Shown: piece after piece, positions 5,886 through 18,400 of the stretch | Position numbering within the stretch: the first letter of the stretch is position 1 | Layout of the letters: each line of letters starts with the position of its first letter | NCBI GenBank assembly: GCA_000342265.1 | Contig: CP004348.1 | Coordinates: 930,001 to 994,000 of the forward strand | Origin: a beta proteobacterium CB | GTDB lineage: Bacteria; Pseudomonadota; Gammaproteobacteria; Burkholderiales; Burkholderiaceae | Length of the DNA: 64,000 nucleotides | Reading direction: 5' to 3' | Program-made: the position numbers and the translations under genes | The notes under the pieces: model-generated | What the model was told of the DNA's origin: nothing | The model's database searches: none | What the model saw: only the letters and a program-made list of their open reading frames with translations

Positions 5886-8071
<2,186 letters not shown>

Positions 8072-8091
8072 TAGATAATCACTTCTAATTT

Positions 8092-8418
8092 ATGCGTATC
8101 GTCATCTACTCTATGCTGTTATTGCTGATCGCAATACAGTACCCACTTTGGCTGGGTAAGGGTGGATGGCTTAAGGTTTACGAGATGGAGAAGCAATTAG
8201 AGTTACAGCAGGCTAAAAATAGTCTGCTTAGCTTACGTAATGCCAAGCTGACAGGCGATGTTAAGGATTTGAAAGAGGGTACTCGCGCAATTGAAGAGCG
8301 AGCTCGTGTTGAGCACGGCATGCTTAAAGAGGGCGAGTTCTTTGTACAAATTCTGCCAAACGAAAAGTCTGCCTCCAATGCTGCTGAAGGGGTAAAGCCA
8401 GTCACCACTAAGCAGTAA
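8092..8418 (+). CDS. ftsB: Cell division protein FtsB
   Basis: A 108-residue bitopic membrane protein: a short N-terminus, one membrane segment (about residues 3-20), then a coiled coil (about 28-75, leucine-rich with ELQQAKNSLLSLRNAKLTGDVKDLK). This is the FtsB/DivIC pattern, part of the FtsQLB complex that activates septal peptidoglycan synthesis. Its place right after eno is the usual proteobacterial location and supports the call. The C-terminal tail is longer than in E. coli FtsB. Confidence 0.92.
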   Translation: MRIVIYSMLLLLIAIQYPLWLGKGGWLKVYEMEKQLELQQAKNSLLSLRNAKLTGDVKDLKEGTRAIEERARVEHGMLKEGEFFVQILPNEKSASNAAEGVKPVTTKQ

Positions 8419-12187: not shown

Positions 12188-12784
12188 TTACTTCTTCTTA
12201 GGCGTTGTAATGGATGCAGCCATCGCATCAAAATAAATTACCTTAACTTGTTCACCAACATTTACGTCAGCCAACAACTGAGGGTTTTTTACCGTCACTA
12301 CAGTAACCTTGCCACTTGGTCCTTTGACCGATACTAATTTTTTAGCACGATCGACATCAACAATGTCTGCAATGATGGTGGTAGTGTTGGTAATGGTGCG
12401 CGCTGGCTTTTCACCTGGCTTTGAAGCCACTTCAGATGAAGTTTCCACTTTGCTGCGAATACCATCGCTCTTAGTCTTGATGAGCTCAATTGCAACAGCA
12501 AGTTCATAGGTGACGCTCAGACGATCACCTTTTTTAATTTGATCGAAGTTCTTTATCTCAGGACCAGCAACAAATTTAGATTCACCTTCATTGTTTTTAA
12601 AGAAAATTGTGCGCGTTTTCTTATCAATCTTAGTAACTGTGCCTTCGTACAATTGGAAAATATTGTCAGTAACGGCTGCATCTACCACTACCGCATTCGC
12701 AGCGGGCGCTTGAGCCATTACCAGAGCTGGACCTGCCAACAAAGCCGCGGCTACGAGGGTAATTGGGGCGAATTTAATTTTCAT
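12188..12784 (-). CDS. Predicted periplasmic protein of unknown function
   Basis: A 198-residue protein with a clear Sec signal peptide (cleavage near VMAQA, residue about 25). The mature part holds two similar beta-rich segments: VTKIDKKTRTIFFKNNEGE (about 50-68) and IVDVDRAKKLVSVKGPSGK (about 141-159), each followed by a GD/GEQVKV-like strand, which suggests a duplicated small barrel domain. I do not recognise a named family. The start has AAGGA seven bases upstream. It is probably cotranscribed with the M48 protease gene downstream. Confidence 0.75.
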   Translation of the reverse strand: MKIKFAPITLVAAALLAGPALVMAQAPAANAVVVDAAVTDNIFQLYEGTVTKIDKKTRTIFFKNNEGESKFVAGPEIKNFDQIKKGDRLSVTYELAVAIELIKTKSDGIRSKVETSSEVASKPGEKPARTITNTTTIIADIVDVDRAKKLVSVKGPSGKVTVVTVKNPQLLADVNVGEQVKVIYFDAMAASITTPKKK

Positions 12785-12967
12785 AACTTTCCTTAATATT
12801 AAGTATTTCTGTAGTGATATTAGCGTATTTTCATGCCAAATTTCACTTAAAGTGCCAGCATATGCTTCCCACGGAAATTTATTAGCTTCTTTGATAACAT
12901 CAATTCTTTTGTATTGATTGAACTCAAAGGAACGAGATGCCCCGTTTTGCCGCCAACCTCACAATGC

Positions 12968-13453
12968 GAAAGCAATGCCTCTAGCTGAATGCGGGTAGCT
13001 AGGGGGTGGTTTTCATGACGTCGTGCCTGTATCAGAGACTTCCAAAAGCGCAGTAACTTGGGCAGGCGCGCTTGTTGCGCAAGGCTCTTAATGACGGCCT
13101 CATGCTTTGGGTAATAGCGAGGCGAACCCATTTGGGCGCAACTTTGCAAGTCAGAGACCCACCGTTGCATGGTGGCCAACAAAACTGAATAGCGCGCTTT
13201 TTGGGTCTTATCTGCCGCATCTAACCAATTAATTCTGGCGCCTTGTGACATCGACTGTAATAAGTAACGCGATGCTTGGATGGCAATGGTGAGCTCATCT
13301 TTTTCATCCTGATTATGGTGGGCAATTAAAGAGTCTAAAACTGCATATGGCGCCCCACCCTGCTCGTCATAAATGGATTCGATATCACCATCGCTCATTT
13401 TTAAGCCCGGCGTCTTGCTCAGCTCAGAGCGCAACCAATTTAACCCCGTAATA
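12968..13453 (-). pseudogene. Extra copy of the holB C-terminal coding segment
   Basis: These 486 bp appear identical, base for base by reading, to 17283-17768 inside holB, in the same orientation. They encode HolB residues about 211-372, that is the whole helical C-terminal collar domain without the AAA+ domain and zinc ribbon and without the last nine residues. By chance the frame stays open past both edges (a TTG-started frame 13563 to 12847), but its N-terminal part is antisense to yqiA and its tail is unrelated to HolB. It is best read as a gene fragment made by a recent partial duplication, not as a functional clamp-loader subunit. Confidence 0.85.
12968..13453. repeat. Direct repeat copy A (486 bp)
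   Basis: Matches copy B at 17283-17768 with a constant offset of 4,315 and no difference found. The outside flanks diverge at once: left A has ATGC where B has TTGA, right A has GGCA where B has CGAT. No terminal inverted repeats or target duplication typical of an insertion sequence are seen. Confidence 0.95.
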
Positions 13454-13508
13454 GGCACTAGAGAAAATGGCGAACTTTGAAATTGGGCAGAAGGGGTAAT
13501 ACGCTTTA

Positions 13509-14096
13509 ATGAAAACAACCCTACTAGTTTATCTTCACGGCTTTCGTTCATCTCCAAATTCAACTAAGGCGGTGATGACTGGCGAAGCGGTGAGGGCGCT
13601 TTCAACAACAGATAACAAATATGAATGGTATTGCCCGCAATTACTGGCATCACCAAGAGAAAGTATGGATATGGTAGTTCGGTATATCGATCAATCTCAG
13701 GCTGATCGTCTGGTAATTATTGGATCATCATTAGGCGGCTTTTATACCAACTATCTGGCTGAAAAATATCAATGTAAGGGTGTTGCACTAAATCCTGCTG
13801 TTTATGCAGCGAGAGAACTGGAGCCGCATGTTGGCATGATGACGGCATATGACAGCGAAGAACCATTTGACTTCAAGGCTGAATACATTGATGAACTGCG
13901 CGCATTGCAAGTGAAGTGCATCACCAATCCAGAGCGTTATTTTTTAATTGCAGCCAAGGGGGATGAACTTCTTGATTGGAAAGAAATGGTTACTTTTTAT
14001 TCTGGTGCCAAGCAATTAATTCTGGAGGGAAGTGATCATGGAATTGCTGACTACGCTGATCATCTTCCGGCAGTGATTGAATTTATCGAGCATTAA
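13509..14096 (+). CDS. YqiA-like esterase (alpha/beta hydrolase)
   Basis: A 195-residue protein of the UPF0227/YqiA family. It opens with LVYLHGFRSSP (oxyanion region), has the nucleophile elbow GSSLGG (about residues 74-79), an acidic residue in AAKGDELLDW and the catalytic His in EGSDHGI. The size and motifs match E. coli YqiA, an esterase on acyl-CoA-like or palmitoyl substrates. The gene lies just beside the extra holB fragment; its 5' region up to 13453 is only 55 bp, so the duplication may have changed its promoter. The DUF3108 gene overlaps its end. Confidence 0.88.
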   Translation: MKTTLLVYLHGFRSSPNSTKAVMTGEAVRALSTTDNKYEWYCPQLLASPRESMDMVVRYIDQSQADRLVIIGSSLGGFYTNYLAEKYQCKGVALNPAVYAARELEPHVGMMTAYDSEEPFDFKAEYIDELRALQVKCITNPERYFLIAAKGDELLDWKEMVTFYSGAKQLILEGSDHGIADYADHLPAVIEFIEH

Positions 14097-15105
14097 TGTT
14101 TTGATTGATTTCTTCGGCAATCTGATTCAAGTTGTTCGCAGAAAATCTCTGTGGATTCTGATTGCTGCAATTTTTCTATCTGTATCTGGTCACCTGATTT
14201 TGTTTTTTGGACTACCGTTTATTTCCTTCGGCAGCCCTCCACCTATTGCTGAAGATTTGATTATCAAAACAGAGCTTCGTGTAGAGCCCCCTAAAAAAAT
14301 TCAACTGACAAGCGCCCCAAAGAAAAAATCAGCACCAAAAAAATCCAACGCGGTTTCTTCCGATCCTTTGCTAGCTCAGGGCCAAGGAGAGCAGGGTGCA
14401 GTTGGTAATCAATCCGGTCAAGCCTTTCGCCTTCCCGAATCTGGCACCTACTATTTTGATGCTTATGTTGATGGACAGCTTTATCAAACAGCGCAGTTGG
14501 ACTGGATCACGGAAGGCAACAACTACCGCCTTTACATCAACATTCCTTACGCTGTAGTTGGCCCATTTGTCTTTGAATCGCGTGGCTCCGTTGATGCATA
14601 CGGAATAGCGCCATCGATTTACTGGACGCAACGTGGTACCAAGCCACCTCGTTATTCCAGATTTGACCGAGATCAGAGTGGGGCGGGCAAGATGCACTTC
14701 TCTGAAAAACCCGATTTCACGCCAGATTTATTACCGGGAACTCAGGATCGTTTTAGCCTCATGTTTCAATTTGCCTCCCTTTTAAATGGCAGCGACAAGA
14801 TTGATGAAGCAGGGGGCATTAGAGCGCTTCCTGTTGTTGACTACAACACCTTGGAAATGTGGCAGTTTAAAAGCTATGGTGAGACTGAATCGGAAGATAT
14901 TCCTAGCTTAGGTAAGTCGGTGAATCGTCGTTACGCCCTCATGCAACGTGAAAACGACCCATACAAGCGTCAAGTGGATATTTGGCTTGCTAGAGACCTC
15001 GACTGGCTGCCGGGTAGGATGCGATCCCTGGAGTCCAACGGACGCGTTTTAGAGCTGGTATTCAAGCAGAAAGCGCCAGTAGATCGAGCTAAGCTCATCA
15101 ATTGA
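14077..15105 (+). CDS. DUF3108 domain protein
   Basis: A protein of about 342 residues with an N-terminal membrane anchor (about residues 25-50), a lysine/proline-rich linker (PPKKIQLTSAPKKKSAPKK) and a C-terminal beta-rich DUF3108 domain (about 120-340), so most of it should lie in the periplasm. Function is unknown; family members are found in betaproteobacteria. No ATG fits the start: the first usable codon is TTG at 14077, overlapping yqiA by 20 bp, with another TTG at 14101. The overlap suggests translational coupling to yqiA. Confidence 0.75.
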   Translation: MNLSSINVLIDFFGNLIQVVRRKSLWILIAAIFLSVSGHLILFFGLPFISFGSPPPIAEDLIIKTELRVEPPKKIQLTSAPKKKSAPKKSNAVSSDPLLAQGQGEQGAVGNQSGQAFRLPESGTYYFDAYVDGQLYQTAQLDWITEGNNYRLYINIPYAVVGPFVFESRGSVDAYGIAPSIYWTQRGTKPPRYSRFDRDQSGAGKMHFSEKPDFTPDLLPGTQDRFSLMFQFASLLNGSDKIDEAGGIRALPVVDYNTLEMWQFKSYGETESEDIPSLGKSVNRRYALMQRENDPYKRQVDIWLARDLDWLPGRMRSLESNGRVLELVFKQKAPVDRAKLIN

Positions 15106-15133
15106 GCTCTAAAACATGAAATCAGGCGGTTTT

Positions 15134-15673
15134 TTAGAATCCAGACCCTGATTTTGGGCTTTGATTGGATCGACCCAGTAAGGCACCCATCATTGAATAA
15201 AGCGCTGCGCCAGACATTGAGACGGCAAAGATGCCTGTGAATGAAATGATGATTGGCAAGATTCTCCATTGCTCAGACAGGCTATAAGTACCAAATCCCA
15301 CGGTGGTATACATTTCACCAGCGAAATAGAAGGTCTGTGGATTGGTTGGAAACACCTGCAAAGCAACGCAGATATAAGTCCAAGCCACGATTTCCGCTAA
15401 ATGGCTGGCAATAATCAACAAAATTGCGATGAAATACGACAAGAAATTAGCTAAATAAACTCGTTTGTTTTCTAGCTTTTGATCTAACCAATGAAATGCA
15501 CCGGCAATCATTAGCACTGCAATCCCATGAAATGTCAGCATGAGACATGCCAGGAGCAAAACAAACCAAATCTGACTGCTGCCCATATCCGTATTGATCT
15601 CAGCAAACATGTTGCTGAAACTGGGCAGACTTTGAAAGCCGGGGAGTTTGCTTATGTGGTCAAGTATGTACAT
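15134..15673 (-). CDS. Potassium channel-like membrane protein
   Basis: A 179-residue protein with three clear hydrophobic segments (about 33-61, 73-105 and 137-163). The pore loop before the last segment carries TTVGFGTY (about 123-130), a variant of the K+ selectivity filter TVGYG with Phe for Tyr. This is the two-transmembrane ion-channel fold with one extra N-terminal helix. No RCK/TrkA-N or cyclic-nucleotide domain is present. Ion specificity is inferred from the filter only. It converges on the DUF3108 gene. Confidence 0.75.
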   Translation of the reverse strand: MYILDHISKLPGFQSLPSFSNMFAEINTDMGSSQIWFVLLLACLMLTFHGIAVLMIAGAFHWLDQKLENKRVYLANFLSYFIAILLIIASHLAEIVAWTYICVALQVFPTNPQTFYFAGEMYTTVGFGTYSLSEQWRILPIIISFTGIFAVSMSGAALYSMMGALLGRSNQSPKSGSGF

Positions 15674-15756
15674 GTAGCGCCTGTATCAAGCCATTTATTG
15701 ACTGTGATTTCTTATTTGACATAATAATGATTATACGCAATAAGCACTAATGTAAT
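15674..15756 (-). promoter_or_regulatory. Leader with candidate promoter for the channel gene
   Basis: On the minus strand a perfect TATAAT box lies at 15735-15730, about 57 bases before the channel start codon. No good -35 box is found at the usual distance. Confidence 0.3.
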
Positions 15757-16458
15757 TTATGTGGGAGACTTCTTCGGGCCACCTGGATATGGTTGCTTAT
15801 ACAGCTTCTGCCAGCGTGACATGAGTCCATCACGAATATCATCCTTGCCAAATAGCTGAGCCACATCAATTGCTGTATAGCCCTCATGATTACGCATACG
15901 TAAATCAGCACCGTTATCTAACAAGAATTTAATCAACTCATCATTCCCAGAACCAATTGCCATCATTAGAGGCGTTGTTTCGCTTGGGCTTAAGGCGTTA
16001 ATCATGGCGCCATTAGCTAATAAAAACTGAACGATCTGCAGGTGTCCATTGGTGGCCGCATAGTGAATGGGCGCCCAGCCAGATTTGTTAACGGCAGCCT
16101 TTTTGTCTAAAACCAAAGTCTTTACAAGTGAGAAATCACCATCAAATGCAGCCATCATTAGCGGATTTTCACCGCTTTTATTGGCTAGATTCACGTTGGT
16201 AGATGGGTTTTCAAGCAGTAAATTAGTTACTTTCGTTGATTTATCGCGAATAGCGACAATCAGCATGGGATTGCCTTTTGGATCTAGTGTGTTTGGCCCA
16301 ACACCCGACTTGATGAGTGACTGAACCTCTGAAACATCATCAAACTTCGCTGCCTTGGTGAAATCATCAACTTGACCAGCAGTTTGGGCTAAAACAAGGC
16401 TAGAAAAACATAATACGTAGGCACTTATAGCAAGATTTAATTTAAATGAATTTCTCAT
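15757..16458 (-). CDS. Ankyrin-repeat protein, exported
   Basis: A 233-residue protein with an N-terminal signal peptide (cleavage near LAQTAG) followed by about five ankyrin repeats, seen in repeating patterns such as GWAPIHYAATNGHLQIVQFLLANGA and TPLMMAIGSGNDELIKFLLDNGA (given in parts). It probably makes protein contacts in the periplasm; the partner is unknown. The start overlaps the tatD stop by 4 bp (ATGA), so it is cotranscribed with tatD. Confidence 0.87.
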   Translation of the reverse strand: MRNSFKLNLAISAYVLCFSSLVLAQTAGQVDDFTKAAKFDDVSEVQSLIKSGVGPNTLDPKGNPMLIVAIRDKSTKVTNLLLENPSTNVNLANKSGENPLMMAAFDGDFSLVKTLVLDKKAAVNKSGWAPIHYAATNGHLQIVQFLLANGAMINALSPSETTPLMMAIGSGNDELIKFLLDNGADLRMRNHEGYTAIDVAQLFGKDDIRDGLMSRWQKLYKQPYPGGPKKSPT

Positions 16459-17243
16459 GAAATCGTTCTATTTATATGAAAACATTGAAAAAAATTATTA
16501 GAAGTCTGCTCTGCCAGTAATTCAACAGGAACACCCTTCAGGTCGGCAACAAATTCACCTACCTTAGATACCCAAGCAGGTTCATTGGTCTTACCCCGAT
16601 AAGGAATTGGGGCTAGATACGGAGAATCCGTTTCAATGAGCATACGATCTAAAGGAACTTGTTTGCAGGTTTCTTGAAGGTCTTTGGCGCTCTTAAATGT
16701 CACAATCCCTGAAAATGAGATGTAAAAGCCCATTTCCATGGCCGCCTTGGCAACTTCAGTAGATTCTGTAAAGCAGTGCATCACCCCGCCAATTTGGTCG
16801 GCACCCTCCTCTTTCAAGATTCGAAGGGTATCAACTGAAGATGAGCGGGTGTGGATGATGAGGGGCTTTTTAGATGCAATAGCAGCTCGTATGTGAGTCC
16901 TAAATCGTTCTCTTTGCCATTCCATGGATTCATAGCTGCGATCACCCATACGATAGTAATCGAGCCCCGTTTCACCAATAGCGACGATTTTGGGATGTTT
17001 GGCCTCTTGAATTAAGAATTCAAAGCTAGGCTCCGGAGTCTCTTCGTAGTCAGGATGCACGCCAACAGAGGCATACAAATGGGCGTGATCCTCGGCAAGC
17101 TTTCTTACTTTAGGAAAGTCGGGGATATCTACCGAAACGCATAAAGCATGGCTGACCTTACAGGCAGCCATATTGGACAAAACCTCAGGAAGACGAGTTT
17201 GAAATTCAGGAAAATCGAGATGGCAATGTGAGTCTATAAACAT
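16455..17243 (-). CDS. TatD-family metal-dependent hydrolase
   Basis: A 262-residue TIM-barrel hydrolase. Metal-binding motifs are DSHCHLDF at residues 4-11, GETGLDYYR near 90, HTRS, HCFTES and ETDSPYLAP near 204-212. The family comprises Mg-dependent DNases/exonucleases, and this size and motif set fits the TatD/YcfH group. It lies 11 bp after holB, as ycfH does in many proteobacteria, which favours YcfH over TatD itself. Confidence 0.9.
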   Translation of the reverse strand: MFIDSHCHLDFPEFQTRLPEVLSNMAACKVSHALCVSVDIPDFPKVRKLAEDHAHLYASVGVHPDYEETPEPSFEFLIQEAKHPKIVAIGETGLDYYRMGDRSYESMEWQRERFRTHIRAAIASKKPLIIHTRSSSVDTLRILKEEGADQIGGVMHCFTESTEVAKAAMEMGFYISFSGIVTFKSAKDLQETCKQVPLDRMLIETDSPYLAPIPYRGKTNEPAWVSKVGEFVADLKGVPVELLAEQTSNNFFQCFHINRTIS

Positions 17244-17254
17244 GACTCACCATT

Positions 17255-18400
17255 TTAGTCTTCAAATACCTGCTGGTATTGAGAAAGCAATGCCTCTAGC
17301 TGAATGCGGGTAGCTAGGGGGTGGTTTTCATGACGTCGTGCCTGTATCAGAGACTTCCAAAAGCGCAGTAACTTGGGCAGGCGCGCTTGTTGCGCAAGGC
17401 TCTTAATGACGGCCTCATGCTTTGGGTAATAGCGAGGCGAACCCATTTGGGCGCAACTTTGCAAGTCAGAGACCCACCGTTGCATGGTGGCCAACAAAAC
17501 TGAATAGCGCGCTTTTTGGGTCTTATCTGCCGCATCTAACCAATTAATTCTGGCGCCTTGTGACATCGACTGTAATAAGTAACGCGATGCTTGGATGGCA
17601 ATGGTGAGCTCATCTTTTTCATCCTGATTATGGTGGGCAATTAAAGAGTCTAAAACTGCATATGGCGCCCCACCCTGCTCGTCATAAATGGATTCGATAT
17701 CACCATCGCTCATTTTTAAGCCCGGCGTCTTGCTCAGCTCAGAGCGCAACCAATTTAACCCCGTAATACGATCTGGTCGTGGTGCGGACAATAAACGGCA
17801 ACGCGAGCGAATTGTTGGCAACACTCGATCTAAGCGATCTGCCAGCAAGATAAAAATTGTATTTTTTGGCGGCTCTTCGAGAGACTTCAGCAATGTGTTT
17901 GCGGAGTCTGATCTCAGCATCTCCAATGGGTAAACCAAAATCACACGATTACCGCCGCGATGCGAGCCAATAGAGAGGCCTTCGATTGCACTACGAGCAT
18001 CTTCAATGGAAATACTTTTCTTTTCTTTTTTCTCGGGAGCGTCACCATCACCATCAGCTTGACTAGCCTTGGATTTTTTTGATGGCTCAGCGTCTGAATC
18101 AAAATCGCCGTGAGGCAGTAGCTTGCGATGCGTTTCAGGTACAAGTGCAATAAAGTCTGGGTGGTTACCAGAGCCAAACCACCGACAGGCTTCACATTGA
18201 TTGCAGGGCTTTGATCCGGTAAATGTTTCACACAGGAGTGCCTTGGCCAATTCAATGGAAAACTCAAACTTGCCAATCCCTGATTGACCATGAATCAAAA
18301 CTGCACTGGGAAATGCACTCAGATCTATGCCGTCCCAGATAGGCTTAAGCCATGGCGCAATATTCTTGTCTGACACTTGTGGAAACATCATGTCACTCAT
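17255..18400 (-). CDS. holB: DNA polymerase III delta' subunit
   Basis: HolB is the delta' subunit of the clamp loader. The 381 residues contain a degenerate P-loop (HGQSGIGKFEF, about 37-47), a zinc ribbon with four Cys (CETF...CNQCEACRW, about 57-73), an acidic insert (about 100-125, with DGDGDAPEKKEKK), the SRC sensor motif (IRSRCRLL) and the helical C-terminal domain. tmk lies 0 bp upstream and tatD follows, as in other proteobacteria. Residues about 211-372 are duplicated as an identical DNA segment 4.3 kb away, but this copy is complete and is taken as the working gene. Confidence 0.95.
   Translation of the reverse strand: MSDMMFPQVSDKNIAPWLKPIWDGIDLSAFPSAVLIHGQSGIGKFEFSIELAKALLCETFTGSKPCNQCEACRWFGSGNHPDFIALVPETHRKLLPHGDFDSDAEPSKKSKASQADGDGDAPEKKEKKSISIEDARSAIEGLSIGSHRGGNRVILVYPLEMLRSDSANTLLKSLEEPPKNTIFILLADRLDRVLPTIRSRCRLLSAPRPDRITGLNWLRSELSKTPGLKMSDGDIESIYDEQGGAPYAVLDSLIAHHNQDEKDELTIAIQASRYLLQSMSQGARINWLDAADKTQKARYSVLLATMQRWVSDLQSCAQMGSPRYYPKHEAVIKSLAQQARLPKLLRFWKSLIQARRHENHPLATRIQLEALLSQYQQVFED
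17283..17768. repeat. Direct repeat copy B (486 bp) inside holB
   Basis: This is the source copy: it is part of an intact gene and covers all but the last 28 bp of the C-terminal coding region. The partner is 12968-13453. Homologous recombination between the two would remove yqiA, the DUF3108 gene, the channel, the ankyrin gene and tatD. Confidence 0.95.

Follow-up and report, generated by a model that had tools for sequence, protein, structure and literature searches.

An exact partial copy of holB stands in place of hyi and glxR beside a candidate dif site in beta proteobacterium CB

Introduction

Tandem duplications with non-homologous joints, later trimmed by deletion, are known in enteric bacteria from laboratory selections. 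A second class of event, double illegitimate recombination, has reportedly been described in the natural transformation of Acinetobacter baylyi, and one of its forms is said to require no microhomology. Two dif sites present in direct repeat would be expected to be excised by XerCD. At the replication terminus itself, the available portion of a report on Lactobacillus delbrueckii ssp. bulgaricus describes large inverted repeats, which its authors inferred to be a rescue after failed termination or damage (PMC5345009). In Escherichia coli, fork fusion increases recombination between tandem repeats, according to the accessible part of that study (PMC12809603), and the tus and rtp fork traps are confined to four clades, as stated in the accessible part of another (PMC6549158). 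Literature titles and abstract openings yielded no short direct repeat flanking dif.

Here, we describe a 486-bp direct repeat with a dif-like site between its copies, located in a 64,000-nucleotide stretch of the chromosome of beta proteobacterium CB (contig CP004348.1, positions 930,001 to 994,000; called the window, with coordinates counted from its first base). The second copy is a partial holB gene that would be puzzling on its own and that relatives explain as a substitution at the terminus. The copy is real and is not an insertion; it is most likely a fairly recent terminus rearrangement, one without a function of its own.

Results

The repeat is exact and ends abruptly

The intact holB gene, which encodes the delta′ subunit of DNA polymerase III (381 aa), occupies 17255–18400 on the minus strand. 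It matches PF13177 at 129.6 bits (cut-off 27), it scores 293.9 bits against NF005408, under that profile's cut-off of 483, and it aligns at full length with its relatives. Its segment 17283–17768 recurs on the same strand at 12968–13453, as a piece of the C-terminal coding part that ends before the final codons and the stop codon. The two copies are directly oriented and separated by 3829 bp. A base-by-base comparison upheld the preliminary description in two respects: the copies agree at 486 of 486 positions, with 0 differences, and their flanks diverge at once, the match extending by not one further base to the left or to the right. The next-longest exact direct repeat in the 64-kb window is 16 bp, and compared with this runner-up the identity is far beyond chance. 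Across the genome (one contig, 2,045,720 bases), there are exactly two copies of the segment.

The copy replaces most of hyi and glxR

The window was compared with 12 relatives' loci, taken from a search of 186 genomes of the genus Polynucleobacter. In 11 of the 12, the window aligns up to 12966–12967 and then again from 13448–13459, and the right-hand alignment continues via yqiA to holB. Locus L034 has an additional alignment gap near 15.5 kb. The twelfth locus, L043, is more divergent, with the same gene content and order as far as it extends. Between the two edges, the 11 relatives carry 1610–1694 bp containing two genes, which we named in locus L033 as hyi (hydroxypyruvate isomerase; TIGR03234, 387 bits, cut-off 353.45) and glxR (tartronate semialdehyde reductase; TIGR01505, 409.7 bits, cut-off 340.75). 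According to the same 11 alignments, the window retains 31 bp of hyi, from its start codon up to the joint (12937–12967, plus strand), and the last 14 codons and TAA of glxR, still in frame, from the right joint onwards (13454–13499, plus strand). The net change with respect to L033 is a loss of 1130 bp.

Because the relatives' flanks enclose 1.6–1.7 kb of hyi–glxR at the same edges, to within a few bp, the holB piece is a replacement and not an insertion. The preliminary description had reported a second copy of holB; there are indeed two copies, but the second is not a plain extra one, as it substitutes for hyi and glxR. A plain duplication is likewise not borne out by the wider comparison, where 30 of 33 relatives' loci keep hyi and/or glxR in whole or in part. 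The absence of a transposase and of a target-site repeat, recorded earlier, agrees with our finding no repeat at the edges. Insertion of a transposon or insertion sequence was rejected on the loss of 1.6 kb of target and the missing edge repeat, and a mobile element was ruled out by the lack of any match for 12785–13512 among phage or plasmid collections.

The same comparison bears on whether the structure is an assembly or consensus artifact. Exact identity is compatible with a misplaced stretch of sequence, but such an error must also have deleted hyi–glxR, and the assembly is a single contig (99.97% complete) in which the searches described below detected neither an intact hyi nor a glxR match over its cut-off. 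For this reason, and with the retained glxR end in frame, we judge an artifact to be very improbable.

Both joints are nearly blunt

Joint microhomology was judged with the relatives standing in for the ancestor. The left joint reads ...CTCACAATGC/GAAAGCAATG...; from there, holB continues leftwards as ...GGTATTGA and the relatives' hyi rightwards as TATTCAAC or similar, with 0 shared bases. The right joint reads ...CCGTAATA/GGCACTAG..., where holB continues as CGATCTGG and the relatives' glxR enters from ...GTTAA or similar, with at most 1 shared base. The several shared bases that characterize microhomology-mediated joining are therefore absent (0 bp on the left, ≤1 bp on the right). The sequence CAATGC, shared near the left joint, was discarded as a candidate as it is not located at the joint. 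The 22-base left joint has no match in named genomes, a set from which the window's own record was possibly excluded. A profile search for Ku (PF02735) found no match in the genome, with B. subtilis matched among 14 control genomes, and classical bacterial NHEJ is therefore unlikely.

The preliminary description had proposed template switching at a microhomology, GTAATACG, which it placed at 13496–13503 and 17763–17770. Both positions are correct. However, 42 bp of glxR (13454–13495) separate the right joint from the first base of GTAATACG, which lies further to the right and so is not the crossover; template switching is still among the possible mechanisms, only not at this sequence.

Near-blunt joints would also be produced by natural transformation, if a 486-bp holB fragment of the strain's own DNA were taken up and joined at both ends into hyi–glxR by double illegitimate recombination with deletion of 1.6 kb, and the genome has a ComEC protein (96.9 bits, cut-off 36.5) that would suit this route. 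A transforming donor could come from anywhere, yet the source lies 3.8 kb away and in direct orientation. A random genomic source would be this near with a chance of 0.4%, and direct orientation contributes a further factor of two. This proximity favors a local event over the capture of a random fragment, and we consider transformation unlikely.

Transcription and reading frames at the copy

In relatives, hyi, glxR and yqiA are arranged head to tail (in L033, 9 bases separate glxR from yqiA), and the holB piece is consequently expected to be read through in the antisense direction. The gene for a yqiA-like esterase (UPF0227; PF05728, 136.3 bits) lies at 13509–14096 on the plus strand, following hyi–glxR in relatives and here placed behind the antisense-holB stretch. 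A 15-codon leader frame ends at 12984, another 524 bases precede yqiA, and within these 524 bases no stop-free plus-strand frame is longer than 52 codons. Transcripts of the former hyi–glxR–yqiA arrangement would carry 486 bases antisense to holB, which could lower yqiA expression.

The head-to-tail arrangement and the short plus-strand frames would also fit a functional copy, in which the old hyi promoter makes a 486-base RNA antisense to the holB mRNA and lowers the level of delta′. Against such a role, two weak tests gave no promoter-like match on the plus strand in 12780–13600 and one terminator-like match on that strand at 12978–13005, just within the copy. In addition, the copy is seen in one genome only, and it is difficult to imagine what a cell would gain from having less of an essential clamp-loader subunit. 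Regulation by an antisense RNA is thus extremely doubtful, and no function is indicated for the copy.

On the minus strand, a 238-aa open reading frame runs through the copy at 12847–13563. It was examined as a new fusion gene and rejected, since it finds only holB relatives: among its 560 database matches, the best 120 all span 68–69% of its length and cover the holB part only. We do not think that this chance chimera is a gene. The left neighbor of the copy, at 12188–12784 on the minus strand, encodes a 198-aa protein without a Pfam or NCBIfam match whose synteny is kept in most fetched loci. The protein looks secreted, and 18 plasmid records, mostly from Burkholderiales, carry distant homologues.

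The copies flank a dif-like site

At 15714–15741 on the minus strand, between both copies, lies a 28-bp dif-like XerC/XerD site, ATTGCGTATAATCATTATTATGTCAAAT, which the preliminary description had overlooked together with the replacement of hyi–glxR. It has 5 mismatches to the proteobacterial dif consensus, and its core has a single match in the genome (2.05 Mb) when up to 3 mismatches are allowed. The XerD arm, TTATGTCAAAT, is common to this site and two betaproteobacterial dif sites given in the accessible part of PMC2731167. Of 34 loci, the window's own among them, 32 keep the core amid diverged flanks, and L053 (a short locus) and L063 are without it; in an overlapping set of named loci, 49 of 58 keep it. 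Several of the nine named loci without the core are short or distant, and two, L117 and L118, are not distant and are not both short. Where it is present, the 25-bp core of this putative Polynucleobacter dif hardly varies. As read from the sequence, the site is flanked by a potassium-channel-like gene and an ankyrin-repeat-like gene. Because a TATAAT motif lies inside the site, upstream of the potassium-channel-like gene, part of the conservation could reflect a promoter.

The composition of the window changes around the same place. Its cumulative GC skew, computed over the window, climbs to a plateau at about 11.4–18 kb and then drops, so that the sign switches inside the window; dnaA is found at base 88 of the genome. 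The KOPS-like motif GGGNAGGG occurs to the left of the site once on the plus strand and 0 times on the minus strand, and to the right 0 times on the plus strand and four times on the minus strand. The genome encodes XerD (349.6 bits, cut-off 329.6) and a second XerD-related protein whose score, 246.5 bits, is under the cut-off. We take 15714–15741 as the likely dif, or terminus, site of this chromosome.

A local rearrangement could rebuild the structure

We consider it probable that a non-homologous rearrangement, local to the replication terminus, left this structure as its scar, either by tandem duplication and deletion or by an equivalent single event. In the two-step path, a 4315-bp unit that spans dif (13454–17768) would be duplicated in tandem, as over-replicated or broken ends are joined where two forks meet, and this would create a joint between holB 17768 and glxR 13454. 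A deletion reaching from base 31 of hyi to position 17283 in the first copy's holB would then take away the rest of hyi–glxR and most of the first unit with its dif, and leave 486 bp. In the single event, replication would jump from hyi to holB, copy 486 bp and jump back into glxR, by template switching between converging forks; the two joints would be identical to those of the two-step path. With L033 as a stand-in for the ancestor, the two-step model rebuilds the window base for base with a deletion of 5445 bp, which is no test of the model, because the reconstruction succeeds for any direct local copy.

A route by way of a duplication is not the most economical, as mutation-accumulation lines of E. 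coli seldom gain tandem duplications: the accessible part of one report gives 0 in 67 wild-type lines and 1 in 37 mutS lines, with 14 and 39 deletions, respectively, in the same lines (PMC10292909). The full-duplication intermediate was absent from all genomes examined (58 named loci and 33 other loci). A direct repeat of at least 24 bp was present in one of the 58 named loci, where it is a run of N, and none above 29 bp was present in the 33 other relatives' loci.

The centers of the duplicated unit and of the dif-like site are 117 bp apart, which has a chance of about 5% given that dif is inside the unit. This arrangement allows a more specific account: the copies would preserve, like a fossil, a natural case of over-replication where forks fused. 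Overrunning forks would have produced a unit roughly symmetric about dif, which survived only through the deletion of one dif. Survival would have required this loss because XerCD would excise direct duplications holding dif. We regard this account as possible and, on balance, doubtful. The position of dif was noticed after the fact, which counts against an explanation by the terminus, and the loss of hyi–glxR does not need a terminus, because a second hyi locus 73 kb away has lost the pair too.

The genome has lost hyi–glxR twice

This second locus, to the left, contains gcl followed by hyi, the latter with its attached glxR end at 7724–8299 of locus L045 (equal to 869723–870298 of contig C1 of the genome, G000). 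Here, hyi breaks off near residue 182 and runs into the final ~29 bp of a glxR end; residues 1–186 were matched at 869723–870280, and the frame of this fragment is still open. It is a separate deletion of the hyi–glxR pair in the same genome. The gcl gene is intact. When the genome was searched with hyi and TIGR01505, hyi was not found intact and glxR did not reach the cut-off, the one weaker TIGR01505 match having a value of 1.9e-69. In the absence of intact hyi and glxR, the product of Gcl would have no dedicated reductase or isomerase.

The two hyi starts have 31 bp in common (12937–12967 and L045 7724–7754), as do the two glxR ends (13470–13500 and L045 8269–8299). As recombination sites, these stretches were rejected, since relatives show them to be gene ends; their identity is taken to reflect exchange between the loci. 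When the second hyi (L045 7724–8268) is compared with L033, L035, L046 and L047, it looks mosaic between the two locus types, with L1-like sequence at both ends and L2-like stretches within the middle. This suggests gene conversion between the two hyi loci.

In the wider genus, 33 relatives' loci were compared (12 + 1 + 20), 14 of which were selected for an odd-looking hyi or glxR, so that the counts apply to this selected set. Both genes form one unbroken alignment each in 17 of the 33 (including L070, with a stop in hyi); hyi or glxR is split in five; five are without hyi, one is without glxR and five have neither or remnants only. The hyi–glxR pair is thus lost repeatedly in the genus. Loci with hyi and/or glxR lost or frameshifted beside dif are L034, L038, L053, L055–L066 and L074.

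The holB gene was matched in 159 of the 186 genus genomes, about 15 of which have more than one holB piece, and among the matches listed, a second near-identical copy was found only in G000. Genome G182 has a partial second holB match at the end of contig C2 and the start of C9, probably overlapping contig ends. To date, the holB scar is a solitary case.

The age of the copy

The preliminary description had argued that identity forces a choice between a very recent duplication, gene conversion and an artifact. This choice does not follow: 0 differences in 486 bp have a 95% upper bound of 0.61% divergence, so that neither gene conversion nor an artifact is needed, and 0.61% may still represent a long time. 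Relatives give no closer date, because the 186 genomes include no strain-level relative and the nearest holB among them is 84% identical. The intact gcl and the still-open hyi fragment at the second locus fit recent losses.

An older copy might have been held identical by gene conversion with holB 4.3 kb away. Repeats in fork-fusion zones recombine more often, according to the accessible part of PMC12809603, and the apparent mosaic of locus types in the second hyi is a sign of conversion in this lineage. But no decay is yet visible in gcl, in the hyi fragment or at the glxR end, as expected if the losses were recent, and we find an old, homogenized copy decidedly unlikely.

Discussion

The class of event that we describe is ordinary and its place is informative; the position of dif is the interesting side, and the mechanism is what we infer. 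For the organism, hyi–glxR has been lost at both loci with remnants left behind and gcl intact, which predicts a testable defect in glyoxylate use. If the account centered on dif were true, similar scars could be counted in closed genomes, and their number would estimate the natural frequency of terminus duplication by fork fusion and could show whether XerCD filters duplications that hold dif. In that case, the remaining 486-bp direct repeats around dif would also serve, in this strain, as a natural reporter for instability of the terminus.

Each of the described systems shares part of this structure. As with the terminus repeats of L. bulgaricus, DNA around dif is duplicated; in the available portion of that report (PMC5345009), the repeats are 38–76 kb long and inverted and dif is duplicated, whereas in the window the repeat is 486 bp long and direct, dif is single and two genes are lost.

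The trimmed duplications of enteric bacteria resemble the locus in having two non-homologous joints and in being direct and local. Unlike them, the present case is inferred from one natural genome, and its unit spans dif. Double illegitimate recombination in A. baylyi similarly inserts a short segment with loss of recipient DNA, but the source here lies 3.8 kb away and is neither foreign nor random. Finally, the hyper-recombination at fork fusion in E. coli shares with this locus a zone of fork convergence and recombination at direct repeats; as far as the accessible part of that study goes (PMC12809603), it was observed with reporter constructs and mutants, whereas the window holds a natural scar.
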